From positions 1 to 41,974 of IMG/VR virus record IMGVR_UViG_3300006845_000026: a DNA stretch of 41,974 nt. One strand, given 5' to 3'. Under the pieces are notes generated by a model. The model ran no database searches, was not told the origin of the DNA, and worked only from the letters and a program-made list of their open reading frames with translations. The stretch comes from a virus. Each line of letters starts with the position of its first letter. Position 1 is the first letter of the stretch. Made by a program: the position numbers and the translations under genes. This document shows, piece by piece, positions 2,890 to 39,758 of the stretch.

Positions 2890-3558
2890 ATGATTGGAGG
2901 AAAAAGGGTCAGGGAACTCGGTGTCGGGGACATCCCGCTCATCGCCCAGTACGACCCGCGCCTCGCGGTTGCGCTGGCATACGGCGGAGCGTTCGCGCCG
3001 AAAGGCGTGATCCTCAACGGCATCGCGTCCGCCGTCGGTGGTTGGGAGATCTTGACGCTCCGAGCAACGTTTCAGAGCGGCACGGCCAACCAGACCATCC
3101 CGGTCACGCTGCCGGACGTGGCTGAGGTCGACATGTGGGTGCGCGACATCCGCGCGACCGTGCGTCGACCGAACTACTTCCCCGGCAACCCGCTGCGCGA
3201 TATCGCGAACACCGCGTACGCGCAAAACCCGGACATCGACTTCACGCTCGAGGTGAAGACGTGGTGCAACTTCGCCATCAGTCTCGACCCCGTGCCGCTC
3301 GGCTTGATCGCCGAAACGTTCGAGTGTGTTTGCCCGGTCGGCCTCGTGCTCACGTGCGGTGCGTCGATCATCGGCAGCTTCACGAACACGCGCGCGCTCG
3401 TCGACCCGGACGAGATCCCGACCGAGGTCACCGTCGCGTTGCACGTCACTCGTCTGCCGCGCACGAACTGCTACGCGCAGATCGACATCGCCACAGCACT
3501 CAGCGTGCTCAAAGAACAGAAGATCCTGCCCGACATCGATCCTGGTTGCTGCGGGTGA
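2890..3558 (+). CDS. Candidate minor capsid protein
   Basis: 222 residues, soluble and predicted beta-rich, with no membrane segment. It has a Cys cluster in the middle (ECVCPVGLVLTCG) and ends in DPGCCG. It lies between the candidate major capsid gene and another beta-rich protein, with a 100-base leader and a weak ribosome site (gtggtgaacc). Size and place would suit a vertex or minor capsid protein, but no family was recognised and the role is inferred only from neighbours. Confidence 0.5.
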   Translation: MIGGKRVRELGVGDIPLIAQYDPRLAVALAYGGAFAPKGVILNGIASAVGGWEILTLRATFQSGTANQTIPVTLPDVAEVDMWVRDIRATVRRPNYFPGNPLRDIANTAYAQNPDIDFTLEVKTWCNFAISLDPVPLGLIAETFECVCPVGLVLTCGASIIGSFTNTRALVDPDEIPTEVTVALHVTRLPRTNCYAQIDIATALSVLKEQKILPDIDPGCCG

Positions 3559-3569
3559 GGTGGTGATGG

Positions 3570-4520
3570 ATGGCGCAGAGTCGAGCAGATGCGAGGAAGC
3601 ACGAGTCGGAGATCACGGTAGCGGCTGAGCTACTATCCGAGACGCCCGAGCTCGCCCACCTCTCTCGAGACTACTGCGGTTGGCGCTCGCGCTGTCCCGT
3701 CGTCGTCGACATCGTCAGTTCCGCGTTCGACATCGACAACATCGGTCTCGGCAGCTCGCCGTACACCGGCGACATGAGCCGCACCGGCATCGCGGTACCT
3801 CTCGCGCCGACGGTCAACCAGCAGCACCGTTACCTGTTTCGTCTCGCGACCATGGAGGTGCCGAGCGGGGCGGCGGCGGTCATCCTCGGAGTCCACACCG
3901 CGCAGACGCTGCGCACCGTGCTCGAGGGGACCGACGGTGAAGGCTCGAGCTGTTTTCGACCGCTCGAGATCTTGGTGCGCGAGCCGTTCTGGCAACCGCC
4001 GAACGGCAACATCTCGTGGCACTTGAGGCAGTGGCAGTTGCGCGAGCACCGTCGCTTGCTGACCGCCGGCCCGGCAGCGGCCGGCTTCGACATCCACGTG
4101 GACGGCAATGACACCGCGCTCATGTTCGCCGAAACCGTGTCGTTCGCGCCGTACACCCCGCCGTTCTCCGGCATGCCTCCAGGGCGCGCGATCGGTGCAC
4201 TCGGCACGTGGCGCGACAATCGCGACTGGGAGGTGCACATCCCCATCTTCGGTCCGAAGAAGATCGGCCTCTGGGCGTCAGTGCACCAGTTCGACTCGTT
4301 GCTCATCTGCCCGACAACCGCACCGACCGACCTCGGCGCCATCTCGCAAGAGGACCGCTTCCTGTACGCGTTCGGTTCGACCGGGACCGGCGTCCAATAC
4401 GGTCGGGTGGCTGGCGCCATCACCGTGGAGCTCTGGCCGAATTGCAACGACCTGAGAGACCACCTGCGCGCCGGGGGTAAGCTTTTCCAACCGAGTTCAA
4501 CAAGGAGATTGCAGCCGTGA
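3570..4520 (+). CDS. Candidate structural protein, beta-rich
   Basis: 316 residues with no membrane segment. It contains many short hydrophobic strands (e.g. RYLFRLATMEV, AAAVILGVHT, ITVELWPNC) and a Trp-rich middle (REPFWQPPNGNISWHLRQWQL). The gene starts 11 bases after the previous one, behind a GAGGTGG ribosome site, and its end overlaps the next start as GTGA. The strand pattern and context suggest a virion surface or vertex protein. No known family is visible. Confidence 0.5.
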   Translation: MAQSRADARKHESEITVAAELLSETPELAHLSRDYCGWRSRCPVVVDIVSSAFDIDNIGLGSSPYTGDMSRTGIAVPLAPTVNQQHRYLFRLATMEVPSGAAAVILGVHTAQTLRTVLEGTDGEGSSCFRPLEILVREPFWQPPNGNISWHLRQWQLREHRRLLTAGPAAAGFDIHVDGNDTALMFAETVSFAPYTPPFSGMPPGRAIGALGTWRDNRDWEVHIPIFGPKKIGLWASVHQFDSLLICPTTAPTDLGAISQEDRFLYAFGSTGTGVQYGRVAGAITVELWPNCNDLRDHLRAGGKLFQPSSTRRLQP

Positions 4521-5587
4521 GCAAAGTCAATTGGACGGGACGCATCAGTCCGGACAACCGCCGCGGCTCTGTGGGAGCTCCCCCGCCCGTGTTCTGGTGG
4601 TACTTCAAGGTCTACGCGAAGTACGGAGGCGAGGTCGTGCACTCGGAGGGCCCGAGCGGCATGACCGGAGCTCAGGGCAACGCGCGCATCTTGATGCTCG
4701 GTCAGCAGTACGGGACCGAGTACGTGGTGTGCGGCACGTACCTCGGCGGCTACGGCGGCAAGAGCACGTACTGCACTTACGACGGTGGCGTCACGACCAA
4801 GTACGGTGAGCCGCCGGCTTTCCCGCCGGTGCCGACGTCGCCTCCGGTGCCGATCATCCCGCTCTTCTTCAACACGCCTCGCGTCCCGTATCGACCGTTT
4901 TTCGGTCCCGCTACCCTCAATCCATTCACGCCGATCTTTCCCGGCTACCGCACCCGCGTCTCGTGGGTCGCGCCGTCGCCGCGTCCGTTCTTCGTGTTCG
5001 GAGCGCGCAGGGTCGAGTGGCTCGGCAGCCGCCTCGGTCAGAACGCTTGCAACGACCTGAACAACGCGGTCGCGAGCGCGAAGGCTTCGAGGAACGGGTT
5101 GCAGCAGAACTTGAGCGCGGTGAACAACGCGTACAACCAAGCGGTGCAAGCCGGTAATCAAGAGGCCATCGCGGATCTCTACGCGACCAAGCTCGGAATC
5201 CAGGCCGACCTCGCGAAGCTCGACGCCGACATCGTCGCGCTCGAGGCTCAGGCGAAGGCCGCGTGCGCGCCGCCCCCGCCGTCGACCGGCTGCACGTCGG
5301 ACGCTGACTGCGGTCCTGCTGGCTTCAAGTGCGTCGACGGGAACTGCGTTCCGTGGGACTGCTTCAAGGACTCGGACTGCGGAGCCGGTCTGAAGTGCGA
5401 CGGCAAGGGCAAGTGCATCCCCGCGACCACGACCGCGAGCGTCGGCGGTGGTGGGATCTGGCTGCTCGCCGCCGCGGCGGCTGCCGCGATCTTCTTCGCG
5501 ATTAAACCACCGAAGCTCCCGAAGACTGCCGCCGGTCGGTTGCAAGAGAACCGTCGGCGTCGACGTCGACAGGCGGCCGCCGCTTGA
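4517..5587 (+). CDS. Membrane protein with two VxW/RRVEWLG motifs, coiled coil and Cys-rich repeats
   Basis: 356 residues from a GTG start in a GTGA overlap. It opens with SKVNWTG, a short form of the window's shared N-terminal motif. A full copy, RVSWV..RRVEWLG, lies inside at residues ~147-170 (4955-5026). A helical coiled-coil-like stretch (172-250) follows, then two Cys-rich units (~255-302; TSDADCGPAGFKC..GNC and KDSDCGAGLKC..GKC) of a kind common in Myxococcota, a membrane segment (~311-330) and an Arg-rich tail after LQEN (5540-5554). The internal motif suggests fusion of two module types. I infer a virion membrane protein. Confidence 0.75.
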   Translation: MSKVNWTGRISPDNRRGSVGAPPPVFWWYFKVYAKYGGEVVHSEGPSGMTGAQGNARILMLGQQYGTEYVVCGTYLGGYGGKSTYCTYDGGVTTKYGEPPAFPPVPTSPPVPIIPLFFNTPRVPYRPFFGPATLNPFTPIFPGYRTRVSWVAPSPRPFFVFGARRVEWLGSRLGQNACNDLNNAVASAKASRNGLQQNLSAVNNAYNQAVQAGNQEAIADLYATKLGIQADLAKLDADIVALEAQAKAACAPPPPSTGCTSDADCGPAGFKCVDGNCVPWDCFKDSDCGAGLKCDGKGKCIPATTTASVGGGGIWLLAAAAAAAIFFAIKPPKLPKTAAGRLQENRRRRRRQAAAA

Positions 5588-5602
5588 GCGGGAGGAGGCT
5601 AA

Positions 5603-5980
5603 GTGCGGGTCACTTGGGTCAAAACAAACCGGCGAGTCGAATGGCTCGGTAAGATTCCGAGCGGGCGCGTCGGTCTGACCGACCAGGAGCGCGTCAACGA
5701 GGCGCGGTCGTACTTCCCTGGGTGCTACTCGAAGGCATTCGATGATTGCATCGATAAAGGCTTGGTGACCGCCTACCCGAATTGTGCGCGAATCCTCGAG
5801 CTCTGGGGCAACGACAAGACGGCACCCGTCTCACTCCAACTCGACGCCGTGATCGATCAGATGCCGTATTGTTCCGCGCCGAGCACGGCAACGTCGTCGA
5901 GCGACAACACGGTGATCTGGGTCGTCGGCGCGGTGGCGCTCGCCGCCGTCGCTGGTTACGCGCTCGCGGGAGGTTTCTGA
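5603..5980 (+). CDS. Small tail-anchored protein, RVTWV/RRVEWLG family
   Basis: 125 residues with a GTG start and a strong GGAGGAGG ribosome site. It has the clearest N-terminal motif (RVTWV, then RRVEWLGKIPSG), a middle region with four Cys (residues ~41-90; PGCYSKAFDDC..YPNC..PYC) and a C-terminal membrane segment (~102-122). With no signal peptide and a terminal anchor, it would display its N-terminal part on one side of a membrane. The function is unknown. The motif ties it to the following genes. Confidence 0.7.
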   Translation: MRVTWVKTNRRVEWLGKIPSGRVGLTDQERVNEARSYFPGCYSKAFDDCIDKGLVTAYPNCARILELWGNDKTAPVSLQLDAVIDQMPYCSAPSTATSSSDNTVIWVVGAVALAAVAGYALAGGF

Positions 5981-6192
5981 TGAGGGTCAACTGGGTCGGA
6001 ACCAGTCGCGAACTCGAGTTTCACCGCGCGCAGCGAACGATGCTCAGCGGACCACGTCGTCTCGGTGTCAGTGCCGGCGGCGTCTCGGTCGCGACATCCG
6101 GCATCATCGCGCCGCTCGTCGTGGTCGGCATCTTGGCGCTCGCCATCTACGGCGGCGTGAAGGCGATCGGGAAACTACCAGAGGGGCGTTGA
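5980..6192 (+). CDS. Very small membrane protein, RVNWV family
   Basis: 70 residues; the ATG overlaps the previous stop (ATGA). It starts RVNWVGTSRELEFHRA, a degenerate form of the shared motif (ELEF in place of VEWL), followed by one membrane segment (~42-60) and a short basic end. There is no enzymatic domain. The ATGA coupling supports this start over a longer frame opening upstream inside the previous gene. Confidence 0.65.
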   Translation: MRVNWVGTSRELEFHRAQRTMLSGPRRLGVSAGGVSVATSGIIAPLVVVGILALAIYGGVKAIGKLPEGR

Positions 6193-6195
6193 TGC

Positions 6196-6468
6196 ATGCG
6201 CGTCGACTGGGTGCAGAGTCGACGCCGCGTGGAGTGGCTGGGCGCGCTCCCGTCAGGCGAGAGTGCGGAAGCTCTCGTCGGCGGCGACTTAACAGCGTTG
6301 CCCGTCGTGACGTTTCATACCGGCTTGCGTGCTGGACTCATCGGTCTCGGTCTGTACGTGGCAGGTTTTCGAGGCGAACAACTCGTGAAGGGTGCGATCG
6401 CCGGTGCGGTCGGCATCGAGGCGTTCGTGCTAGCGTGGGCTCTATACGAACGAGGTAAGAAAAAATGA
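6196..6468 (+). CDS. Small membrane protein, RVDWV/RRVEWLG family
   Basis: 90 residues. The N-terminus reads RVDWVQSRRRVEWLGALPSG, the most compact copy of the shared motif. Two hydrophobic segments (~47-66 and ~71-86) are separated by FRGEQLVKG, and the protein ends in KKK. It is likely a two-pass virion membrane protein of unknown role, in one operon with its neighbours. Confidence 0.7.
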   Translation: MRVDWVQSRRRVEWLGALPSGESAEALVGGDLTALPVVTFHTGLRAGLIGLGLYVAGFRGEQLVKGAIAGAVGIEAFVLAWALYERGKKK

Positions 6469-7217
6469 ACGCCGTCAATTGGGTAAACGCACGAGGACAA
6501 ACTTCGGCGGTTGGTCCGAAAGGTCGCAAGGCGCGTCGCGTGCAGTGGCTAGGTGCGCCCGCGTTCGGCGTCGGCGCGCTCGACGTCGCCTCGAACGGGT
6601 TCGCGAAGGGGCTGCTCGCGTCGTGGAACGCGACTGACGGCGCGAACTGGATCAATCAGTACGGCTTGCAGCCGGGTGACGTCGACCCGAACGCCTGGTA
6701 CGACCGAGACGGCTACGTCCTCGCCGGCTTCGTCAAGTGGTGGAACGGCACGAACGCGCAGAAGCTTCCCGAGCCGGGGACGAAGAACGGCGTCGCTTGG
6801 GTCGACCTGACGCAGCAGCACTTGACCACGCTCCAGAATTGGGCGCTGTCGAAGGGTATCATCAACCCGGGTCAGCTCCCGGCTTCGCCGCAGCCGACTC
6901 CTGTGCCGATGGACATGTCGACGTGCCTGGCCAATTGCCAGAACACGTACGGGCTCGATCCGATCTCGCTCGCGACGTGCGCCGCTGCGTGCGCTCAGTC
7001 GTTCCCTCTCACTCCTCCACCGGTGCCGATCTCACCGACACCGACGACGCCGGCGCCGACTACCCCGCCCTCCACTCCTCCGCCTACCATCCCGACGGCG
7101 CCCGTCACGCCGGGCACCACGACGACCAGCGAGAGCAAGACGAACGTCTGGCCCTGGGTGATCGGTGGCACTGCTTTGGTGGCACTCGGTGCGTTGGTTC
7201 TTTCTGGAGGGAAGTGA
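6465..7217 (+). CDS. Tail-anchored protein with Trp-rich domain and Pro/Thr stalk
   Basis: 250 residues, with an ATGA overlap. The motif is spread out (VNWV...RRVQWLGAPAFG). Residues ~45-135 form a Trp-rich domain (YDRDGYVLAGFVKWWN) that recurs in the next gene, so the two are paralogues in that part. A four-Cys helix pair (~152-180) and a Pro/Thr stalk (~182-220) lead to a C-terminal membrane segment (~226-247). The build is that of a domain held off a membrane on a stalk. No enzymatic motif was seen. Confidence 0.7.
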   Translation: MNAVNWVNARGQTSAVGPKGRKARRVQWLGAPAFGVGALDVASNGFAKGLLASWNATDGANWINQYGLQPGDVDPNAWYDRDGYVLAGFVKWWNGTNAQKLPEPGTKNGVAWVDLTQQHLTTLQNWALSKGIINPGQLPASPQPTPVPMDMSTCLANCQNTYGLDPISLATCAAACAQSFPLTPPPVPISPTPTTPAPTTPPSTPPPTIPTAPVTPGTTTTSESKTNVWPWVIGGTALVALGALVLSGGK

Positions 7218-7220
7218 GCC

Positions 7221-8360
7221 ATGCGCGTCGAATGGGTACAGAGGCGTCGAGTCCAGTGGGTGCGTGAGACACGCGCTCAGCTCGGTGTTGGTCTGATCGG
7301 CATTCTTGAATGGGAAGACCCCGTCGAGAAGAACCCGTCCGGCGCGCAGCTTCACGCCAAGAACATTCTCTGGCTGTGGGGAAAGGCGAATCCGACGTAC
7401 AGCCCGATCGCCGGCTACGGGACTGCGGCCGACCTCACGAGCAATTGGATGGATCGCGATCGTCAGATGATGTCCGCGTTCTGCAACTGGTGGAACATCA
7501 CGCACCCGAGCCAGGCGATCCCCATCTCGCAAAACGTCACGAACGCGAACATCAAGGCGCTCGACCAGTGGGTCAAGGAAGAGAACGCCAAAGCGTCGCA
7601 GGCTCAACCGATCACACCCGGGCAATTCCCTCCGGGTAGTGGACAGCCGCAACCGCAGCTCACTTTTCCTCTGCTCACTCTCACGCCGCTCGGCTGGCCT
7701 CCCGGCGTGCCGTACCCACCGCCGAAACCTTCCTGGTGGCCCGACGGGCTCAATTACCCACCGGTCGGCGACTCGTGGGCGCCCGTTCCTCCTGGTTGGT
7801 GGAATCTCTCGCCGAACCCGCTGCCGTGGCCGCCGCCGAAACCTGACGGCTGGCCCACGTTCCCGTACCCGCTCCCGCCCACGGCGCTCGCGTCGGTCAT
7901 GTCGTGCGATCAGGTGTGCGACGCTCAGTTCGGAACCAAGGGCACGACTCCGAACCAGACCGCGCTCGACGTCTGCAAGAAGGGTTGCTCGACGGCTGCG
8001 ACTCCGCCTCCGCTGACGTTCCCGATCGGTCCGCAGAATCTTCGCCCGCTCCCACCCGACACGGGGACGGCTCCGAGCACGGGGACGACGTCCACGCCGA
8101 AGTCGAGCGTCGTGCCGATCGTGCTCGGTCTTGCAGCGCTCGGCGGCGTCGCGTGGTTGTTGATGCGCGGCAGCGGCACGACCTTGCTCGAGAACCCGCA
8201 GTTCAGCTTTCTCGGCTGGACGTTCGGTGCCCACAAAACGGGCAGGGGCAAGGTCAAACCGCCGAAGATGAAGCTCACGAAGAAGGGTAAGAAGGAATTC
8301 GCCGCGGAATGGAAGCGCGTGTTTCCCACACTACCCGTCCCGGATATTGACGAGCCATGA
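7221..8360 (+). CDS. Stalked membrane protein, paralogue of the upstream gene
   Basis: 379 residues. It starts RVEWVQRRRVQWV. It shares the Trp-rich domain with the upstream protein (MDRDRQMMSAFCNWWN). It then has a long Pro/Trp repeat (~155-220; WPPPKP, YPPPKP), a Cys pair (VCDAQFG..DVCKKGC), a membrane segment (~296-314) and a ~60-residue basic tail (KVKPPKMKLTKKGKK). LLENP occurs just after the membrane segment (8184-8198). The Pro/Trp repeat also appears in the next gene. I infer a virion spike or anchor protein. Confidence 0.7.
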   Translation: MRVEWVQRRRVQWVRETRAQLGVGLIGILEWEDPVEKNPSGAQLHAKNILWLWGKANPTYSPIAGYGTAADLTSNWMDRDRQMMSAFCNWWNITHPSQAIPISQNVTNANIKALDQWVKEENAKASQAQPITPGQFPPGSGQPQPQLTFPLLTLTPLGWPPGVPYPPPKPSWWPDGLNYPPVGDSWAPVPPGWWNLSPNPLPWPPPKPDGWPTFPYPLPPTALASVMSCDQVCDAQFGTKGTTPNQTALDVCKKGCSTAATPPPLTFPIGPQNLRPLPPDTGTAPSTGTTSTPKSSVVPIVLGLAALGGVAWLLMRGSGTTLLENPQFSFLGWTFGAHKTGRGKVKPPKMKLTKKGKKEFAAEWKRVFPTLPVPDIDEP

Positions 8361-8821
8361 AAGTTGATTGGGTCCGTCCGATGCAGAATGCCTCGCGCTT
8401 CGGCGCGCTGGGGCAAGCTGCGACTCCACCGGCGCCGCCGGGGTGGACGGGTCCGTGGCCGCCTCCGAAACCCCCGTTCTGGGACCTCACCGGGCTGCCC
8501 TGGCTGCCCACGGCCCTCCCTGCGCAGCGACCGCCCTTGTACCCGCCCACGCTGCCCTGGCCGCCTCCGCCGCCCCCGTACTGGCCCGCGGGGTGGGACT
8601 GGCCGCCGCAGCCGCCGGCGAGCTGGACGACTCCGCCTCCGGTGCCTGCCTCGACCCCCGTAACACCCCCCTCCGGCGGCGCGGGGCCGGCACCGACTTC
8701 TTCTGTCTCGAGCTCGGGCGGCGACAGCGTCGCTTACGTGATCGGTGGCGTGCTGGTCCTCGGACTGTTCGCACTTGTCGCGCTCGGCGGCATGGCGTCG
8801 CAGGAGGAAGATGCGGCGTGA
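8357..8821 (+). CDS. Pro/Trp-rich tail-anchored protein
   Basis: 154 residues, with an ATGA overlap. It begins KVDWVRPMQ, the first half of the shared motif. Residues ~25-95 are a Pro/Trp repeat (PWPPPKPPFW, LPWPPPPPPYWP) that would form an extended polyproline rod, followed by a Ser/Gly linker and a membrane segment (~124-146). It resembles the stalk of the upstream protein without its N-terminal domain. No catalytic motif was seen. Confidence 0.65.
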   Translation: MKVDWVRPMQNASRFGALGQAATPPAPPGWTGPWPPPKPPFWDLTGLPWLPTALPAQRPPLYPPTLPWPPPPPPYWPAGWDWPPQPPASWTTPPPVPASTPVTPPSGGAGPAPTSSVSSSGGDSVAYVIGGVLVLGLFALVALGGMASQEEDAA

Positions 8822-9531
8822 CTCACCCGCTGGACCTCTTCATGCCCGTCGGCGCCGTCGCGATGCCGAGCGCTTGGTTCGATTCCGGATGCGGTGGACC
8901 GCGTGCGCGGTGGACCGCTGAAGGTCTGATCGAGGTCGAGGGCGAGGGTGCGAAGTCGCGTGCACTGCCCGCGGACGTGAAGAAGTGGCGTGACCTGATC
9001 ATTACCAAGTCGACCAAGTACGGCGTGCCGGCACAGTTCACGACCGGCATCATGGGTCTCGAGAGCAGCGGAGATCAGAACGCGAAGTCGCCCGCGAACG
9101 CGTGTGGGCTGATGCAGCTCATCCCGTCGACCGCGTCTGACCAAGCCGGCCGCCCCGTCACGTGCGCGGAGCTCTTGAGCGACGCCGACCTCAACGTTGA
9201 TCTCGGCACGAAGTTCTTGGCCGAGCTCCTGACGAAGTACGGCAACAACCCGATCAAGGTCGCGGCCGCCTACAACGCCGGCTCGGCGAAGTGTGGGATG
9301 AGCAGCAAGTGCACCTCACCGAATCGATGGAACTTGCTCACCGACTGCGGTCAGAGCGGCGCGTCCGCTGATTATCCCGGTATCGTGTTCGGCTACACGA
9401 ACGCGGCCGCAGCGTGGCTCGGCGCCAATCCAACGGTGAGCCCGTCTTCGTCAGGACCGAGTCTCGGCGCGCTCGTGCTCGGTACCGCGGCCGCAGGCGG
9501 TCTGCTCTGGGCATGGGGAGCATTTAAATGA
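8818..9531 (+). CDS. Lytic transglycosylase (SLT-like), tail-anchored
   Basis: 237 residues from a GTG in a GTGA overlap, with AGGAGG about 12 bases upstream. A longer frame exists, but this start is favoured by the coupling and gives the N-terminus THPLDLFM, one of the HP.D.F tags. The core matches lysozyme-like SLT domains: GVPAQFTTGIMGLESSG with catalytic Glu82, then GLMQLIPSTA and AAYNAGS. Such enzymes cleave the glycan strand of peptidoglycan. A membrane segment closes the chain (~215-237). In a virion it would open the wall during entry. Its peptidoglycan-hydrolase neighbours support this. Confidence 0.85.
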   Translation: MTHPLDLFMPVGAVAMPSAWFDSGCGGPRARWTAEGLIEVEGEGAKSRALPADVKKWRDLIITKSTKYGVPAQFTTGIMGLESSGDQNAKSPANACGLMQLIPSTASDQAGRPVTCAELLSDADLNVDLGTKFLAELLTKYGNNPIKVAAAYNAGSAKCGMSSKCTSPNRWNLLTDCGQSGASADYPGIVFGYTNAAAAWLGANPTVSPSSSGPSLGALVLGTAAAGGLLWAWGAFK

Positions 9532-10565
9532 ACCGCGTCAATTGGTGCGTTCCTATCCGGCGTCTCGAGTTTCTCGGCGCGTACACGGGCTACGACAAGA
9601 TCAAGGACAACGCGCTCGCCAAGGAGATCATCGGGCGACGCGGCGCTGTCGACGAGGAGTCGCTCAAGGCGTACGGCAAAGTCGGCGGCACGATCGCGGG
9701 TGCGGGACTCTGCGCGGCGACTGGCGTAGGCGCAACGGTTGCGGTCGGGTGCGGCATCATCGGCGGCATCATCGGCGAGTGGATCGCGAGCAAGATCCCC
9801 GTCGCGCACGGTTCGACGATGGAAGACCTCGTCGGCGACACGATCAACAACTTCATCAAGCCGAAGGCGAAGCTCTCCGCCAACGGCATGTACGCGGTGC
9901 GTGCCTACCTCACGATGCGCGACCTCGCGATCACGAAGGGCCTCGCGACTGACGCTTCGTTGACCGCGGCCGGTATTCCTCCGGCACCGGTTGACCCGCG
10001 CTGGGCGCCGAACGCGCAGCGGTACTCGCGAGCGAAGAGCAACTACTCAGACGTGCTCGTCCAGCTCGCGCAGTCATCTGCGTGGCAGAAAGAGTGCAAG
10101 GCCGCGAAGAACATCAAGGCCGTGAATTCCAAGTTCTCGTGCCAGGACTACCTCTATGCCGTCTACTACGAGGGATACATCGGCCCGGTCGCGGCGCCGG
10201 GCGAACCGATCGACTGGTACGCGGTCGGGCGCGACGAGATCGCGTTCTATTGGAAGGTGCTCAAGTACAAGAAGGACTGCGAGGCGTGGATTCGCGGGCC
10301 TCAGTTCATCGGCACGAAGCTCGACCCGAACTTGACGTGCCCGATGAATGCGCCGAGTACGCTGGCGAAGATCTACCTCGACAAGCTGAACGCGACGGTG
10401 AAGTGGCCCGCTAAGGGCAGCCCGCTACTGCCCGACGTCCTCGACATCTCTCAACACATCTTTGGTTCGTCCGGTACCACCAGTACTCCGTCGAAGACAA
10501 GTCCGGTGCTCGTGGTCGGAGGACTCGCCGCCGCTGCTGCGGCGGTGTGGTACTTCTTCCTGTGA
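9528..10565 (+). CDS. Membrane protein with glycine-rich segment, RVNWC family
   Basis: 345 residues, with an ATGA overlap. The N-terminus NRVNWCVPIRRLEFLGAYTG is a variant of the shared motif. Residues ~50-83 are a Gly/Ala-rich hydrophobic segment (VGGTIAGAGL..VGCGIIGGIIGEW) that resembles pore or glycine-zipper segments. A helical middle carries scattered Cys (KECK, FSCQDY, KDCEAW, LTCP), and a membrane segment ends the chain (~321-345). No enzyme signature is visible. With segments at both ends it could span or bridge membranes, but this is inferred. Confidence 0.65.
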   Translation: MNRVNWCVPIRRLEFLGAYTGYDKIKDNALAKEIIGRRGAVDEESLKAYGKVGGTIAGAGLCAATGVGATVAVGCGIIGGIIGEWIASKIPVAHGSTMEDLVGDTINNFIKPKAKLSANGMYAVRAYLTMRDLAITKGLATDASLTAAGIPPAPVDPRWAPNAQRYSRAKSNYSDVLVQLAQSSAWQKECKAAKNIKAVNSKFSCQDYLYAVYYEGYIGPVAAPGEPIDWYAVGRDEIAFYWKVLKYKKDCEAWIRGPQFIGTKLDPNLTCPMNAPSTLAKIYLDKLNATVKWPAKGSPLLPDVLDISQHIFGSSGTTSTPSKTSPVLVVGGLAAAAAAVWYFFL

Positions 10566-11152
10566 GGGTGAACTGGGTCGGAGCCGTCAACGGCCCGACG
10601 GTCTTGATCGGAGACTCGCTCGCGGTCGGGCTCGCGCAACCGCTCAAGGCGGAGTTCGGCGCCGAGCCGTTTCAAGCGTTCGCGAAGGGCGGAACGGCGG
10701 TCTCGCAGTGGCTCAACGGCTCGCAGGCGGGCGAGCTCGCGAAGGCCCTCGAGCTCGGCCCGAAGCGCGTGCTCGTCTCGCTCGGCACGAACGACACGAA
10801 CTCGAAGGTGCCCGCGGACCAGCTCAAGCAGCAGGTCGCCGCTCTCGTGCAGAAGATTCGCGACGTCGGCGCCGAACCGGTGTGGCTCAGCCCGGGAAAA
10901 CTGCCGTGGCCGTATCCGGACTTGATCGCGGCCGTCGCGTTCTCGAACGCGCGCGTGGTCATGCAGCCGGACGTCAAGAAGTTCGACGGCATTCACCCGA
11001 CCGGCGACGGCTACAAGGAGTGGGCGAAGGCGATCTATCAGGACTTGAACCCGTCGGCGACGATGGGCACGAGCTCGTCGACGACGAAGACGATCACCAA
11101 CTTCGCGGTGCTCACCGGTCTCGCGTTGCTCACGTGGTGGGTGCTGTCGTGA
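10562..11152 (+). CDS. SGNH/GDSL hydrolase, tail-anchored
   Basis: 196 residues from a GTG in a GTGA overlap. It starts RVNWVGAVNG. All SGNH blocks are present: block I IGDSL (Ser19), block II Gly43/44, block III GTND (Asn77) and block V DGIHP (Asp142, His145). These enzymes remove acyl groups from glycans or lipids. Beside wall-cutting enzymes, a peptidoglycan or polysaccharide O-deacetylase role is likely. A Ser/Thr linker and membrane segment (~176-195) anchor it. A second SGNH gene is encoded on the minus strand at 18563-19138. Confidence 0.85.
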   Translation: MRVNWVGAVNGPTVLIGDSLAVGLAQPLKAEFGAEPFQAFAKGGTAVSQWLNGSQAGELAKALELGPKRVLVSLGTNDTNSKVPADQLKQQVAALVQKIRDVGAEPVWLSPGKLPWPYPDLIAAVAFSNARVVMQPDVKKFDGIHPTGDGYKEWAKAIYQDLNPSATMGTSSSTTKTITNFAVLTGLALLTWWVLS

Positions 11153-12000
11153 AAGTCGATTGGGTGCAGACGAAGCGTGCTCACCAGCGCGTGGAGTGGC
11201 TCGGTCAGACCGTCGAGCTCTTCCAACCCACGACGACGCTCGAGGACATCGTGCCGGAGCAGCGGCCCAAGTTCGAGGCGCTCATCGCGTACGCGAAGTC
11301 ATTCGGCATGACGATCAAAGTGCGCTCGGCGGGCCGCACGTGCGCGACGCAGCAGTCGTACTACGACCTCGGCGAGCAGATCACGCAAGCGAACTTGTGC
11401 CGTTCCATGCACGTGTTCGGTCACGCCGTGGACTTCGACCTCGTGCCCAACACCTGCCTCTCGTACACGAAGCTTGGCGAGTGGTGGGAGAAGCAGGGCG
11501 GCGTCTGGGGCGGCCGCTGGAAGCAGTTCGGCCCGTGCGGGGACATGGGACACTTCCACATCGGGATGAACGGCGCGCAGGCCGTGCCGACGTCGCTGTG
11601 CCCGGCAAACGTCACCGAGTCCGAGTGCAAGAAGATCCGCGAAGACTACCTCACCAAGGCGTTTGGTCAGGCGACGCCGACAACCTCGACGAGCTCGCGC
11701 ATGGGCATCCTGTCAGGACTCTTGATCGCGGGCGCTGCCGCGGCACTCCTCTACGCGACGTTGAATGTACGGGCGCCGGTCCGCGTGCGCGAGAACCGAG
11801 CGAGGACTGTTGAGCAAGCGTACAAAGATCTACTTGAAAAATTCGACGAAGAGATGGCTCTCGCGCAAGAAGCGGAAGATCAAGGTCTCTACGAACGAGC
11901 CGACGTACACTCCCGAGCGGCCGACGCCGCGGACCGACGAGCCGCCAAACTCTCGCAAGAAGTGATCGACGGCAAACGCCGTTGGGAAGATCCGTACTGA
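11149..12000 (+). CDS. M15-type peptidoglycan peptidase, membrane-anchored
   Basis: 283 residues from a GTG in a GTGA overlap. It starts KVDWVQTKRAHQRVEWLGQT, a full shared motif. The zinc-peptidase signature of the VanY/endolysin M15 group is clear: SMHVFGHAVDFD (His88, Asp95) and GHFHIG (His135, His137). Such enzymes cut peptide bonds of peptidoglycan stems. A membrane segment (~184-205) is followed by a charged helical tail of ~75 residues starting near VREN. Together with the transglycosylase and SGNH hydrolase it covers glycan strand, acyl group and peptide. Confidence 0.88.
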   Translation: MKVDWVQTKRAHQRVEWLGQTVELFQPTTTLEDIVPEQRPKFEALIAYAKSFGMTIKVRSAGRTCATQQSYYDLGEQITQANLCRSMHVFGHAVDFDLVPNTCLSYTKLGEWWEKQGGVWGGRWKQFGPCGDMGHFHIGMNGAQAVPTSLCPANVTESECKKIREDYLTKAFGQATPTTSTSSRMGILSGLLIAGAAAALLYATLNVRAPVRVRENRARTVEQAYKDLLEKFDEEMALAQEAEDQGLYERADVHSRAADAADRRAAKLSQEVIDGKRRWEDPY

Positions 12001-12317: not shown

Positions 12318-12386
12318 TTGCCTCCGCAGTTGGCGGAGGAATTGGCGAAGCAGTTCGCTGAGCTGCGCAGGGAGAACATGACGTGA
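12318..12386 (+). CDS. Possible 22-residue peptide or readthrough extension
   Basis: A TTG-started frame coding for an amphipathic helix (LPPQLAEELAKQFAELRREN) with its stop in a GTGA overlap with the next gene. It lies in the same frame as the previous gene, four codons after that gene's TGA, so it could be a leaderless mini-gene, a C-terminal extension made by TGA readthrough, or a remnant. The overlap fits the coupling style used everywhere else here. Confidence 0.35.
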   Translation: MPPQLAEELAKQFAELRRENMT

Positions 12387-12934
12387 AACACCCGACTGAG
12401 ACGTTCTTGCACCTCGGGCACGCGGGCGGGAGCGGTATCCCGTCCCGCTGCCGCATGCGCGACCTGTGGGACGAGCACGTCCAGTACACGCGCATGGCGA
12501 TCGTTGCCTTCGCGAATGGTCTGCCCGAGCTCGACGCAACGGTGGCGCGTCTCCAGCAGAATCAGGACGCACTCGGCGCGTTCTTCGGCGAGCGGCTGGG
12601 TGCCGCAGTCGGGCAGAAAGTCGCGGCGCTGCTGCACGAGCACATCGACGGCGCCGTCGCACTCTTGAAGGCCGCGAAGAGCGGCAGCGGCTTCGAGCAG
12701 GCGTACGGAGCCTGGAGGCAGAACGGCATCGAGATCGCCGACGCCCTCGCGTCGACCGGTTTCTGGTCACAGCAGGCGCTGCGCGAGGCGATGCTGAAGC
12801 ACTTGGAGACGACGGTTGCCGAGGCAGACGCCGAGATCAAGGGTCGCTGGGCGGAGAGCGTCGCCGCTTACGACGTCGCGCGCGAGCACGCGCTGATGAT
12901 GGCGAGGGTGTTCTCGGACGGGTTATCACTATGA
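12383..12934 (+). CDS. All-helical protein of a widespread uncharacterised family, HPTETF tag
   Basis: 183 residues from a GTG in a GTGA overlap. It begins KHPTETFLHLG (12389-12409), an HP.(D/E).F tag. The rest looks like an all-helical family I know from Firmicutes and large viruses: W..H...TR..I.....GLP....T..RL..NQ...G, then LL..HI..AV.L..AAK and W..N..EIA..L. That family has no settled function; some database labels (glycosyltransferase and similar) are not supported by sequence. No membrane segment was seen. Confidence 0.7.
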   Translation: MKHPTETFLHLGHAGGSGIPSRCRMRDLWDEHVQYTRMAIVAFANGLPELDATVARLQQNQDALGAFFGERLGAAVGQKVAALLHEHIDGAVALLKAAKSGSGFEQAYGAWRQNGIEIADALASTGFWSQQALREAMLKHLETTVAEADAEIKGRWAESVAAYDVAREHALMMARVFSDGLSL

Positions 12935-13188
12935 ATCAACATCCGACAGACATGTTCATCGGGCAGCTCGTTTACCCGAACACTTTTTGGCGAGACAAGT
13001 GGGTCTGGTACACGAACGCTTGGAGCCACGCAGGTGGAGACTACGATTACGGTCCCGGTGCCTATCCACCGTGCGACGACAAGGGGATCAGCTCGTGCAC
13101 GAGCGGGCCTCCGTACGTTGCGGAACACATCTGGCGGCTCGACGGACCCGGTCTCTGGACCGATCTCGGTTGGGAATACAATTATTGA
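12931..13188 (+). CDS. Small Trp/Tyr-rich protein with HPTDMF tag
   Basis: 85 residues, with an ATGA overlap. It begins NQHPTDMFIGQLVYP (12940-12960), the third N-terminal HP.D.F tag in this cluster. The body is rich in Trp, Tyr and Gly (WRDKWVWYTNAWSHAGGDYDYG) with one Cys pair (PPCDDKGISSC). It has no membrane segment or catalytic motif. It is likely a minor particle protein, and the role is unknown. Confidence 0.65.
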   Translation: MNQHPTDMFIGQLVYPNTFWRDKWVWYTNAWSHAGGDYDYGPGAYPPCDDKGISSCTSGPPYVAEHIWRLDGPGLWTDLGWEYNY

Positions 13189-14021
13189 TGGACGCAGTCT
13201 TCTGGCTCAAGGCACAAGCGCCGACGAAGCTCGCGTGGCCGAGCGGCGTGAAGCACGTCGGCCTCGACCCAGTCGCGGCGGGGTTCGTGTGCGGGCCGGA
13301 GGACAAGTACTGCTCGACGGCGTTCGGAAAACTCTACGGCTCATTGAAGGACTCGAGCGGGCGCATCACGCCGACGCTGCGCAAGAAGTACGGCGTCGAC
13401 GGCAAGCTCGTGTTCGTGAGCTTCTCAGCCGGTCTCGGGTTCACGAACCCGCTGCTCGCGAATGACGCCGACCGCGCAGACATCGCCGGCGTGGTGCTCA
13501 TGGACTCAACGTTTGGTAGCGGCTATTCCGGCTACCAGAAGGCGGCGAAGGACGCGAGCGCCGGCAAGTTCAACCTCGTCAGCGTGACGAGCGACAAGGG
13601 CACGACCGACTCGCACATGAACGGCGACTACGCTTGGCGTGAAGCCGTGCTCAAGCCGACGGGTCTGCTCAACATGTCTGAAACTTCACCGGTGTCCCCG
13701 ATGCCGAAACCTGGTGAAGGAGTCTTCAACCAGGGCACGCTCTGGTACTACCGCTACAAGGACGCCGAGTACTCGCACACGCAGCTCGGCAAGCTGCTCG
13801 CACCCGTGAGCGAGGCGCACATCATGCCGTGGCTCGCGGGCGGCGGAGTCGGTTCAACCGGTACGTCACGCGGCCCGTCAACGCTGCTGCTACTCGGCGG
13901 CTTGGCGGCGATCGTCGGCGGGGCGTACGCTTACACGACACTCAGGAGGAACGATGGCGGACGACAGCAAGGCAGAGCTCGTTCGACGAGCCGAGCAGGC
14001 GATCGTCGACGTCGTCGTTGA
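13188..14021 (+). CDS. Alpha/beta-hydrolase-like protein, membrane-anchored
   Basis: 277 residues; TGATG junction with the previous gene. A strand-turn-helix KLVFVSFSAGLGF resembles a nucleophile elbow (S.S.G, Ser in SFSAG). It is followed by GVVLMDSTFGSGY and a possible acid/His region (TSDKGTTDSHM). This points to a serine esterase/lipase-like fold, but the triad is not proven. A membrane segment (~227-248) and an Arg-rich tail end the chain. The last 68 bases overlap the next gene in another frame. The 35055 gene looks like a paralogue (LLGFSAS elbow). Confidence 0.6.
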   Translation: MDAVFWLKAQAPTKLAWPSGVKHVGLDPVAAGFVCGPEDKYCSTAFGKLYGSLKDSSGRITPTLRKKYGVDGKLVFVSFSAGLGFTNPLLANDADRADIAGVVLMDSTFGSGYSGYQKAAKDASAGKFNLVSVTSDKGTTDSHMNGDYAWREAVLKPTGLLNMSETSPVSPMPKPGEGVFNQGTLWYYRYKDAEYSHTQLGKLLAPVSEAHIMPWLAGGGVGSTGTSRGPSTLLLLGGLAAIVGGAYAYTTLRRNDGGRQQGRARSTSRAGDRRRRR

Positions 14022-15943: not shown

Positions 15944-16450
15944 ATGGTCAACTGGGTCGAGCCGTCTGAAGCCCTCGCGCCGCCCGACGCGCCGGTCGCG
16001 GACATCTTGCGCGACCCAGGCCAGGAGCCGGGGACGCTTGGCCTCCCGCGCGGCTTCGTGATCGCCGGTCAGAACCTCCCCTGCGACGACTCGTCGACGG
16101 CGTTCGTGCGCGGCGTGCTCGTGCCTAAGAACGTCTACGACTCGATGTCGGTCGAGCAGCGCCTGGCGCTCGACAACCCGAACGCGTACCCGCTCTGGCG
16201 CCTGTACGGCGGCCCGCTCGCGACGCGCGCGCTGGCGAACGACTGGGACCGCTGGCTCTACTTCTGGGCGTTCAACAACGGCCAGGTCTGGATCTCGCAC
16301 GGCGTGCCCTGCGTCGCGCCTCCGTGGGCGGTGGCGCCGCCCCCGGACACGAGCTTCCAGTGGAACTGGGTGTGGGAGGCCGGTCCCGGCAAAGTCGCGA
16401 ACCGGTACTACGACGCGCAGCAGGGCAAGAACGTCGTCGTGGTGGTGTGA
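15944..16450 (+). CDS. Protein with VNWV start, Trp-rich
   Basis: 168 residues, with a ribosome site in the previous gene's tail (GAGGTGACC). It begins VNWVEPSEA, matching the first half of the shared motif, but without a membrane segment. The middle has a Trp/Tyr-rich stretch (NDWDRWLYFWAFNN..VWISHG), and the end is hydrophobic (KNVVVVV). It overlaps the endolysin gene (TGATG). The function is not recognised. Confidence 0.6.
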   Translation: MVNWVEPSEALAPPDAPVADILRDPGQEPGTLGLPRGFVIAGQNLPCDDSSTAFVRGVLVPKNVYDSMSVEQRLALDNPNAYPLWRLYGGPLATRALANDWDRWLYFWAFNNGQVWISHGVPCVAPPWAVAPPPDTSFQWNWVWEAGPGKVANRYYDAQQGKNVVVVV

Positions 16451-37223: not shown

Positions 37224-37931
37224 ATGGAATGGGTCCAAGAGAATCCGAGGCGGCCACCTAAGAAGTGGATGCGCGACTGCGTCGCCGGCGCGAGTTCGAG
37301 TTCTCGTGACCCAGGCGCCGTGTGCGGCGCGCTCTGGTACCACAAGATGAGCGAGTCACAGCGCCGAGCCGCGCTCTCGCGCGAGCGCAAGCTCCAAGAG
37401 AACCAGTCCGGTAACCTGATCATCCCCATGCTGATCGGCGCGGCGATCCTCGGCGGCGTCCTGTGGTGGGCGAGCTCGAAGAAGCAAGAGGAGAAGGCCA
37501 CGGGACCGCTCCCGCCGCCGCCCGCGCCGCTGCCGCCCGGAACGACGTCGCCGTCTCCGATAGCGTGCGACGTGGACGCGACCAAGCTCAAGCAGTGGGG
37601 TCAGAGCCTGGGCCTCGCAGCGATCTACGCGCCCGGCATCTCGCTCTCGTGCGTGGAGATACCGGCGTCGCACGGCTCACCGGCGTCGACGCACTGCCCG
37701 ACCGCGGACGAGGTGCAGGGCGTCCTGACACCCGACGTCGTGTCGCAACTCGACAGCTTGCCGGCGAACACGGCCGTCCTGTTCGCGACCAAGGGCAAGG
37801 GCTTCTGGGAGTTCTGGTACTGGGCGAACGACACGGTCGTCGGCACGCTGCGCCAGGACCTGTACGCGAGCTACTGCGAGAACTTCGGCGGCGTCATCGC
37901 CGGGCACCCCGCTAACCTTTTCATGTTCTGA
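37224..37931 (+). CDS. Membrane protein with GHPANLFM tail, array member 1
   Basis: 235 residues. It starts EWVQENPRRPPKKW, combining EWVQ with an EN site (37233-37247). Its head (CVAGAS..DPGAVCGALWYHKM) looks like a Cys/His module I associate with phage structural proteins (a memory-based resemblance). Then come LQENQ (37392-37406), a membrane segment (~63-82), a Pro stalk and an ectodomain with three Cys (CDVD, SCVEI, HCPTAD). It ends GHPANLFMF. It is first in a four-gene array sharing this plan. Confidence 0.7.
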   Translation: MEWVQENPRRPPKKWMRDCVAGASSSSRDPGAVCGALWYHKMSESQRRAALSRERKLQENQSGNLIIPMLIGAAILGGVLWWASSKKQEEKATGPLPPPPAPLPPGTTSPSPIACDVDATKLKQWGQSLGLAAIYAPGISLSCVEIPASHGSPASTHCPTADEVQGVLTPDVVSQLDSLPANTAVLFATKGKGFWEFWYWANDTVVGTLRQDLYASYCENFGGVIAGHPANLFMF

Positions 37932-38422
37932 TGCAACCGAACGCTCAAACACCTGCCTGGGTCGTGCCCGCGTTGATCGGCGTCGGGGTAGTCGGCGGCT
38001 TGCTGCTCTTCTCGCGCTCGAGTTCCGCATCTTCTTCAGCTCCGTCGACACCGCCGAGCACGCCGAGCACGCCGGCGCCGCTCCCGCCCGCCGTGAAGTG
38101 CGTCGTCAGCCAAGAAGGTCTCGGAAAGTGGTCGATGACCGTCAACATGACGGCGTTCCATGTGCCGATGCTCGGCATCACGGACCCGGTGAGCCCGAGT
38201 CTCGCGTTCGATATCCTGCCTTCCGAGATCATGAACAAGATCTACGCGCTCCCTGCAAGCGAGCGCATCGTGCTCGTCGACAAGAACGACGTCTTCCACT
38301 TTTTCGAGGGCAACAAGTCCACGACGCCGTCAGTTCGACGTGACGACTTGCAAGCGGACTACTGCAACAAGGTCGGCGGCACGCTCGCCGGACATCCGGC
38401 AGATCTTTTCATGGCGTGGTGA
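37931..38422 (+). CDS. Membrane protein with GHPADLFM tail, array member 2
   Basis: 163 residues, with a TGATG junction. An N-terminal membrane segment (~9-28; WVVPALIGVGVVGGLLLF), Ser/Pro stalk (SAPSTPPSTPSTPAPLPP) and ectodomain (VKCVVSQEGLGKWS...) end in GTLAGHPADLFMAW. It lacks the N-terminal head of member 1, so only anchor, stalk and ectodomain are conserved. The membrane orientation would put the tag on the far side from the N-terminus. Confidence 0.7.
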   Translation: MQPNAQTPAWVVPALIGVGVVGGLLLFSRSSSASSSAPSTPPSTPSTPAPLPPAVKCVVSQEGLGKWSMTVNMTAFHVPMLGITDPVSPSLAFDILPSEIMNKIYALPASERIVLVDKNDVFHFFEGNKSTTPSVRRDDLQADYCNKVGGTLAGHPADLFMAW

Positions 38423-39096
38423 TGGCGGTTCAAGAAAAAACCTTTCACTTGAGAGACTACCTCACTCCGGGTGGTCGTTACCCGTACGAGCGCTTGCCGA
38501 AGGACATGCAGGCAGCCTACGACCAGGGTTTCGGCGTGATGCTCCTGAGCGTGCCCGGTTTCCCGATGATCTCGGCGTACCCCGAGTACAAGATGAAGAA
38601 ACCGTGGTGCGTGGATCCCACGCAGTACCGACCGAAGTGTTACAAGACCGCGGCCGAGGCGATGAGACGTCGCAGCTCCCAGAATGCAGATCTACAATCG
38701 AACGCAAGACCGACTTGGCTCGTGCCGGCGATCATCGGAGCTGGCGTGCTCGGAGCGTTGTTTCTCTTCTCCGGCAAGTCGTCCGCGGCACCCGCAGGAC
38801 CGAAACCTTGCCCGGTAGACATGAAGAAGTTCGAGGCGTGGCTCATCGAGAAAGGTCTCGCCGGCGAGTGCGCGCCCAACGAGACGAATCCACCCTACAC
38901 GTACGTCGACTTGCAAAAGGCAGGTCTCGCTCCGGCTGAATTCTCCCCGTACGTGCTCGTGCTCGGTGACGGTTCGTTCTGGTACTACTCCAACATCAAC
39001 GAGCCGGTCGTGAAGAGCGACAACTTGAAGAATCAGTACGCCGCTTACCTCGGCACATTGCAGGGGCACCCGGCCGATCTGTTCATGGTGGCGTGA
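38422..39096 (+). CDS. Membrane protein with GHPADLFM tail, array member 3
   Basis: 224 residues from the ATG in a TGATG junction; GTG codons at 38416 and 38419 are alternatives. An N-terminal domain with KKPWCVDPTQYRPKCYKTA is followed by a membrane segment (~96-117; TWLVPAIIGAGVLGALFLF) and an ectodomain with Cys (KPCPVDMKKFEAWL, AGECAPN), ending GTLQGHPADLFMVA. The pre-anchor domain differs from member 1, while the post-anchor part and tail match. Confidence 0.7.
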   Translation: MAVQEKTFHLRDYLTPGGRYPYERLPKDMQAAYDQGFGVMLLSVPGFPMISAYPEYKMKKPWCVDPTQYRPKCYKTAAEAMRRRSSQNADLQSNARPTWLVPAIIGAGVLGALFLFSGKSSAAPAGPKPCPVDMKKFEAWLIEKGLAGECAPNETNPPYTYVDLQKAGLAPAEFSPYVLVLGDGSFWYYSNINEPVVKSDNLKNQYAAYLGTLQGHPADLFMVA

Positions 39097-39758
39097 TGGC
39101 GAATCCTCATCCGAAGTCCGGTTACGCTTACGCGCTGAGTCACGCTGACGCGGCTCGAGCTGGTAGCTGGAGCCGCTCGGCTAACGACGACTGGGACTCA
39201 GTCATGATCACCCCTCGCCACACGAGCCACTACATGTGGGTGGGGCGACGGCACATCGACGGTGCCGAAGTGAACGTTTGGGACGACGCCCACGGTCGCC
39301 GTTACATTGCGCAGACGACCGTGATGACCGGTCGCTTGCTCGAGAACCAAAGTGACGCGACGCTGCCCACAGTGATCGTAATCGCGGTCGCTGGTCTCGT
39401 GTGGTGGCTCACGCGCACGAAACCTGCGAGCGCTGCACCCGCGAAGCAGCCGTGCCCGATCACCGAACCGATCTTGGCTTCGTACGTGAAGACGAAGCCG
39501 ACCACTTACAAGCTCTACTTGCCTCCGGACCACGTCACCACACCCGTCGCTGCGTGGCCTCCTGCGAAGGCCGACTACCTGGCCAACCCGAACGAGCATG
39601 CCTTCTCGCTCGTCGACTGTGGTTTTTACAAGTGGGACGGCACGAAGTGGGTCTCGGACGACGCCGAGAACCAGGCACTCGCGAAGCACATCGGCGCGAA
39701 CATCGTAAAGGGGCCACCGATGCTGAGCGGACACCCCGCCGACATGTTCATGGTGTGA
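39096..39758 (+). CDS. Membrane protein with GHPADMFM tail, array member 4
   Basis: 220 residues from the ATG in a TGATG junction. A His/Trp-rich N-terminal domain (RHTSHYMWVGRRHIDGAEVN) precedes LLENQ (39336-39350), a short membrane segment (~90-106) and an ectodomain with Cys (KQPCPI, VDCGFYKWDG). It ends LSGHPADMFMV. With member 1 it shares the EN site just before the anchor. Confidence 0.7.
   Translation: MANPHPKSGYAYALSHADAARAGSWSRSANDDWDSVMITPRHTSHYMWVGRRHIDGAEVNVWDDAHGRRYIAQTTVMTGRLLENQSDATLPTVIVIAVAGLVWWLTRTKPASAAPAKQPCPITEPILASYVKTKPTTYKLYLPPDHVTTPVAAWPPAKADYLANPNEHAFSLVDCGFYKWDGTKWVSDDAENQALAKHIGANIVKGPPMLSGHPADMFMV

Follow-up and report, generated by a model that had tools for sequence, protein, structure and literature searches.

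Genes carrying a V-x-W tag at their N-termini

We analyzed the IMG/VR virus record IMGVR_UViG_3300006845_000026 over its 41,974 bases (the window), which encodes 45 predicted proteins, labelled here by start coordinate. Gene starts and N-termini were taken from translations of the window sequence. Twelve of these proteins, all encoded on the plus strand within one gene cluster at 4.5-16.5 kb, start with a short V-x-W motif, hereafter tag A. Under a counting rule of V or I, any residue and W, followed by V, T, C, S, L or I and placed in residues 2-9, only 0.21 carriers would be expected from the proteins' own composition (binomial P about 2e-18), and composition-based trials yielded a maximum of 3 carriers in 2,000 trials. 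A second half, RRVEWLG or a close form, is found in six of the 12 tagged N-termini, against 0.01 expected. It is clear in 5603, 6196, 6465, 7221 (RRVQWVR), 9528 (RRLEFLG) and 11149 (QRVEWLG) and in an internal copy at 4955-5026; 5980 has a degenerate form, and at the N-terminus of 4517 and in 8357, 10562 and 15944 it is either lacking or questionable. V-x-W is the only fixed part of tag A, and the spacer varies from about 2 to 20 residues. As the two halves are alike (RVDWV and RVEWLG), the tag can be described as a V-x-W-(V/L) unit that is present once or twice.

The first carrier, 4517..5587, has the N-terminal half-tag KVNWT and a C-terminal transmembrane segment (TM; predicted throughout by a Kyte-Doolittle scan) followed by LQENRRRRRR, and contains the complete internal tag copy at 4955..5026 (RVSWVAPSPRPFFVFGARRVEWLG). 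It is followed by 5603..5980 (RVTWVKTNRRVEWLG, starting RVTWV), which has a C-terminal TM, by 5980..6192, in which RVNWV is followed by the degenerate second half RELEFHR and a TM, and by 6196..6468 (RVDWVQSRRRVEWLG, RVDWV), a small membrane protein. The next two are paralogues: 6465..7217 (AVNWV...RRVQWLG) has a Pro/Thr-rich stalk and a C-terminal TM, and 7221..8360 (RVEWVQRRRVQWV, RVEWV) has a Pro/Trp-rich stalk and a TM followed by LLENP. The Pro-rich protein 8357..8821 carries the half-tag KVDWV and a C-terminal TM, and 9528..10565 (RVNWCVPIRRLEFLG, RVNWC) has a glycine-rich hydrophobic stretch and a C-terminal TM. Two carriers are enzymes. The SGNH/GDSL hydrolase 10562..11152 (Pfam Lipase_GDSL_2, 7.9e-11) has the single unit RVNWVGA and a C-terminal TM, and the M15 peptidase 11149..12000 (Pfam Peptidase_M15_4, 1.4e-5; KVDWVQTKRAHQRVEWLG, KVDWV) has a TM followed by VRENR and by a C-terminal region rich in charge. 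The weakly tagged 13188..14021 (start 13185/13188; AVFWLK...KLAWPSG, with VFWL as the counted unit) also has a C-terminal TM, and the half-tagged 15944..16450 (VNWV) completes the set as the sole tagged protein with no predicted TM. Thus, 11 of 12 carriers combine a tag at the free N-terminus with a predicted TM nearer the C-terminus.

When the tags were removed, no convincing mutual similarity was left among the protein bodies, except between the paralogues 6465 and 7221. We then compared codons: among tag copies in the window, 98 of 206 same-residue codon pairs are identical, compared with 90.6 expected from codon usage. Because this identity is at chance level, the copies are not explained by recent duplication of DNA or by a signal in the nucleic acid, and because it is no higher than codon usage predicts, selection acts on the peptide. 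These results support the reuse of the same tag on mostly unrelated domains and its maintenance at the protein level. The initial annotation had described V-x-W starts on many unrelated proteins of the cluster, an SGNH hydrolase and an M15 peptidase among them, together with a complete internal copy in 4517; all of this agrees with our results, and the RRVEWLG-like element that it assigned to most carriers holds for the six N-termini and the internal copy named above.

Conservation and drift of the tag in a related genome

A relative was found with a pattern for a second motif of the window (GHPADLFM), which matched one contig of IMG/VR, IMGVR_UViG_3300050514_000135 (G001; 97,101 b); all orthologue comparisons are between these two genomes. 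An exact repeat of 3,650 bases is present at both ends of the contig, which gives a unit of about 93.4 kb. The relative encodes a DNA polymerase A, a UvrD-like helicase, a primase-helicase, ThyX, a dCTP deaminase and an integrase. It is syntenic with the window: the 1575, 2890 and 3570 proteins are 71%, 67% and 54% identical to their orthologues, and the whole tag cluster is present.

Full or half tags are present on all orthologues of the tagged proteins in the relative. The initial annotation had named absence of the motif from related genomes as a refutation, and the motif is present in this one. The internal copy in 4517 is retained as well (HVNWT at the N-terminus, ITWT..RRVQWIG inside), and the orthologue of 5603 carries RVTWVKQSAHGVQWLG. 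Second halves come and go: the 5980 protein has a degenerate one in the window and an intact one in the relative (RVTWVKQRTQRVEWLG), and 6196 shows the reverse, its orthologue having no second half and a weak TM score by Kyte-Doolittle. The 10562 orthologue has a single unit of the second-half type, ARVQWLGA, in contrast to the first-half type in the window, suggesting that either unit alone suffices. The orthologue of 13188, 71% identical, starts with GVLFLK..KVAWPAG, and that of 15944 with VVDWI. The SGNH hydrolase and the 345-amino-acid protein stand in swapped gene order between the two genomes (9528-11152 and G001:70145-68572).

Between the genomes, V and W are nearly invariant and the other tag positions change, with an orthologue identity of 49% in the tags and 61% in the next 100 residues. 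The variable positions are more alike among genes of one genome than across genomes (orthologue swap test, 2/2048). For instance, N or D stands between V and W in 9/12 tags of the window but in 2/12 of the relative, and K follows the unit in 1/12 and 7/12, respectively. Such coherent drift would be explained most simply if all tags of a genome were kept matched to a single partner.

A six-frame search over 139 kb from the window genome and the relative placed the complete tag in the cluster only. In IMG/VR, a strict DNA pattern of the tag matched two unrelated contigs only, and a relaxed pattern gave 89 stretches, among which multi-gene N-terminal tags were confined to those from the relative. 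Single-protein scans of IMG/VR with 1575 and 3570 found no match, and two-row alignments of 2890, 9528 and 13185 matched the same relative and nothing else. Likewise, no match was obtained in GTDB genomes with 1575, or, with the few proteins tried, in GenBank phages (3570, 58-1488 and the 1575 orthologue) and in plasmids (1575 and 3570). MW202816 has a distant DNA polymerase in common; its annotation is that of an ordinary tailed phage, and it was rejected as a relative.

Two further motifs and their positions relative to the membrane

The second motif, HPxDxF(M/I/L) or tag B, is located at the N-termini of 8818, 12383 and 12931 and at the C-termini of 37224, 37931, 38416 and 39093. The GHPADLFM-type pattern has 4 matches in the window against 0 expected, and the relative contains HPADFFMV, HPINLFMI and MHPLDYM. 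The SLT transglycosylase 8818..9531 (plus strand; Pfam SLT, 1.7e-23), which lies in the middle of the tag A cluster, bears tag B (THPLDLFM; orthologue MHPLDYMLGLG) instead of tag A, a correction to the initial annotation, and has a C-terminal TM. Two soluble proteins at 12383..13188 (plus strand) have tag B at their N-termini, KHPTETFL at 12383 and NQHPTDMFI at 12931. The four proteins of 37224..39758 (plus strand) consist of an LQENP-like motif, a TM, a domain and a C-terminal tag B (GHPADLFMV). Since their TM is N-terminal of the tag, tag B is at a free end in both layouts.

The LQENP/LLENP-like motif stands beside the TM in 58-1488, 4517, 7221, 11149, 37224-39758 and the orthologues in the relative. 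In all of the orthologous groups in which its position could be assigned, about ten over the two genomes, it lies across the TM from tags A and B. As the motif was defined by eye from the same sequences, this pattern is no more than suggestive, and it is compatible with either face being the capsid side. Weaker forms of tag A had been noted at 15944 and 37224; the former stands, but the start of 37224 (MEWVQENPRR) was rejected because its orthologue starts with MKMQTNPRRPP and has no V-x-W. By its sequence, this start looks like an LQENP-type motif.

A domain of ~75 residues (NPHPKSGYAYA...) is located before the LQENP motif in 39093 of the window, within the N-terminal 80 residues, and after it in the relative's orthologue of 6465 (G001:72495-72292, L010), at the C-terminus. 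It is on the same side in both arrangements and has moved between a tag B and a tag A protein. The spike-like proteins 14803, 15386, 18257, 36602 and 39762 and the spike-like open reading frames of L009 have an N-terminal pattern in common, SLHS..G.W...R., which is probably a further attachment module. Elsewhere in the window, the region at 21-31 kb encodes glycosyltransferases, a C-methyltransferase and two enzymes of the GDP-mannose dehydratase/epimerase type.

Search for capsid, packaging and protease genes

To characterize the virion type, 70 G001 proteins were scanned against Pfam and PHROGs (for PHROGs, 25 of 35 families are listed). Terminase, portal, HK97 or other known major capsid protein, tail and packaging ATPase were absent from the families listed, of which divergent versions are possible. 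A prohead protease was likewise absent from them. Walker A and family scans for an FtsK/HerA-type packaging ATPase returned only replication-type proteins among the matches listed for G001. For an HK97-fold encapsulin shell, 58, 1575, 2890 and 3570 had no family match, and none was among the G001 matches listed. Family scans gave no sequence match to a double-jelly-roll major capsid protein, and PDB profile searches produced chance-level matches. The consensus of the T4-type prohead-protease site is (L/I)-x-E; the tag ends contain none, and the only match in the 12 proteins is a chance ILE inside 7221.

A probable docking or sorting function

We consider it reasonably probable that tag A is a docking or sorting peptide read by one common viral partner and bridging the membrane with a component of the particle or its assembly. 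We infer that one or two V-x-W-(V/L) units would bind this putative partner in the particle or in an assembly intermediate. The tag would probably adopt an extended, β-strand-like form, possibly a hairpin when both units are present. With each carrier tethered by its TM on the C-terminal side and its tag at the free N-terminus, every such protein could bridge the membrane and the partner, so that the SGNH esterase, the M15 peptidase and the Pro-rich stalks would be positioned together, and the SLT transglycosylase through tag B. Candidates for the partner are the conserved untagged proteins encoded just upstream, at 58-1488, 1575-2789, 2890-3558 and 3570-4520.

Several points weigh against this interpretation. 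Both the partner and its placement in a particle are putative. The scans recognised no gene for a capsid or for packaging, and the term virion rests on the IMG/VR classification and the gene content. AlphaFold models of the candidate capsid proteins 1575 and 2890, built from two-row alignments, reached pLDDT of only 28 and 33. The tag is known from two genomes only, the carrier 15944 departs from the membrane-tethered layout, and the coherent drift could in part have arisen because the genomes differ in overall composition.

The initial annotation had left the choice between a sorting, a docking and a proteolytic site. The data support a tag that is reused on different domains, maintained at the protein level and retained in the relative. 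Docking or sorting is the best reading, and a proteolytic site is disfavoured. We regard it as improbable that the tag acts as a propeptide like the capsid targeting sequence (CTS) of T4, guiding its carriers into a precursor particle before a viral protease removes it by cutting after WLG or farther downstream. The position and length of the tag (about 15-20 residues) do fit T4 CTS propeptides (PMC5694885), and WLG ends many copies. However, this model has to contend with tag ends devoid of [L/I]-x-E, a relative with no prohead protease among its listed families, several tags without WLG and a copy in the middle of 4517. Cleavage directly after WLG is disfavoured also because the invariant V-x-W would be lost, and no protease was recognised. 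WLG followed by a small or polar residue, the site once suggested, does not hold up either: the next residue is variable (K, A, S, Q or R), and in the relative it is often large and basic (K or R).

There is a similarly small chance that the tag sends lysis or wall enzymes to a partner in the host membrane or wall and that its carriers are not virion proteins. Such targeting would suit the three cell-wall-active enzymes and the many TMs of the cluster, but the tag is found also on stalk proteins and on small membrane proteins that are not enzymes, and the drift differs coherently between the viral genomes. Neither a signal peptide nor a Tat-like hydrophobic region follows RR. A Tat signal was rejected on the same ground, most carriers having no hydrophobic segment there (maximum 13-residue Kyte-Doolittle score 0.2-1.7, residues 8-45), and half of the tag A carriers have no clear RR element. 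It is very unlikely that the carriers descend from one ancestor by gene duplication and remain recognisable only at the N-terminus: the carrier genes are neighbours and 6465 and 7221 are indeed paralogues, but the SGNH and M15 folds are unrelated, the bodies are better conserved across genomes than the tags, and the fixation of V and W alone is unexpected for a mere relic. A DNA- or RNA-level element at gene starts, such as a translation or regulatory signal encoding V-x-W by chance, would agree with the location of most copies but is hardly credible, as one copy is internal, spacers range from about 2 to 20 residues, and the codon choice in the tag varies as chance predicts, by which this explanation is largely refuted.

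Taking tag A as a docking or sorting peptide, we tentatively extend the proposal, although we hold the extension to be doubtful. A lineage of ~93 kb without recognisable capsid, portal, tail and packaging genes may build its particle with a few short, interchangeable address tags: free N-termini would carry V-x-W, free termini of either kind HPxDxF(M), and LQENP would mark the other face of the membrane. With a separate partner for each tag, unrelated enzymes and stalks would be directed to particular sides and positions in a particle that contains a membrane. If the docking reading is right, a 15-residue peptide would be a testable handle on the assembly of an undescribed virus lineage, and the tags would be a natural sorting code with several labels that parallels the T4 CTS and the cargo peptides of encapsulins but acts on membrane-anchored enzymes. 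The tags could also serve to recognise virion proteins of these viruses when homology searches do not; the one relative was detected by the HPxDxF(M) pattern alone.

Comparison with known systems

In phiKZ/SPN3US-like phages, the N-terminal parts of several head proteins are processed in a common pathway (PMC5694885). Unlike tag A, several of these propeptides are more than 100 residues long, and a prohead protease removes them; no such protease was detected here. In PR772, the virion protein P16 is anchored by a TM and links the vertex of the capsid with the membrane (PMC6750898). The likeness to the PRD1/PR772 protein lies in the bridging from membrane to capsid by a TM-anchored protein that is proposed here, but P16 is a single dedicated protein, in contrast to a tag on a dozen proteins, and no PRD1-type capsid or ATPase was found here. 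Encapsulin cargo peptides are mostly C-terminal, follow another consensus and belong to an HK97-fold shell, whereas no such shell was recognised in the window or the relative. In such systems, for example with Myxococcus xanthus EncB and EncC, a short peptide docks different cargo to the shell (PMC11866011, PMC11202242).

The T4 CTS directs diverse internal proteins, which share it as a short N-terminal sequence, to the head (PMC3012670, PMC5694885), with propeptides of 10-20 residues (PMC5694885). It differs in being the cleaved propeptide of a tailed phage with a scaffold and a protease, whereas tag A has no [LI]xE site or recognised protease and its carriers are membrane-anchored enzymes and stalks. 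The likeness is that tag A, too, is a short N-terminal sequence on otherwise different proteins. Although it fails defining features of both systems, tag A would, by analogy, work most like the T4 CTS or the encapsulin cargo peptides.

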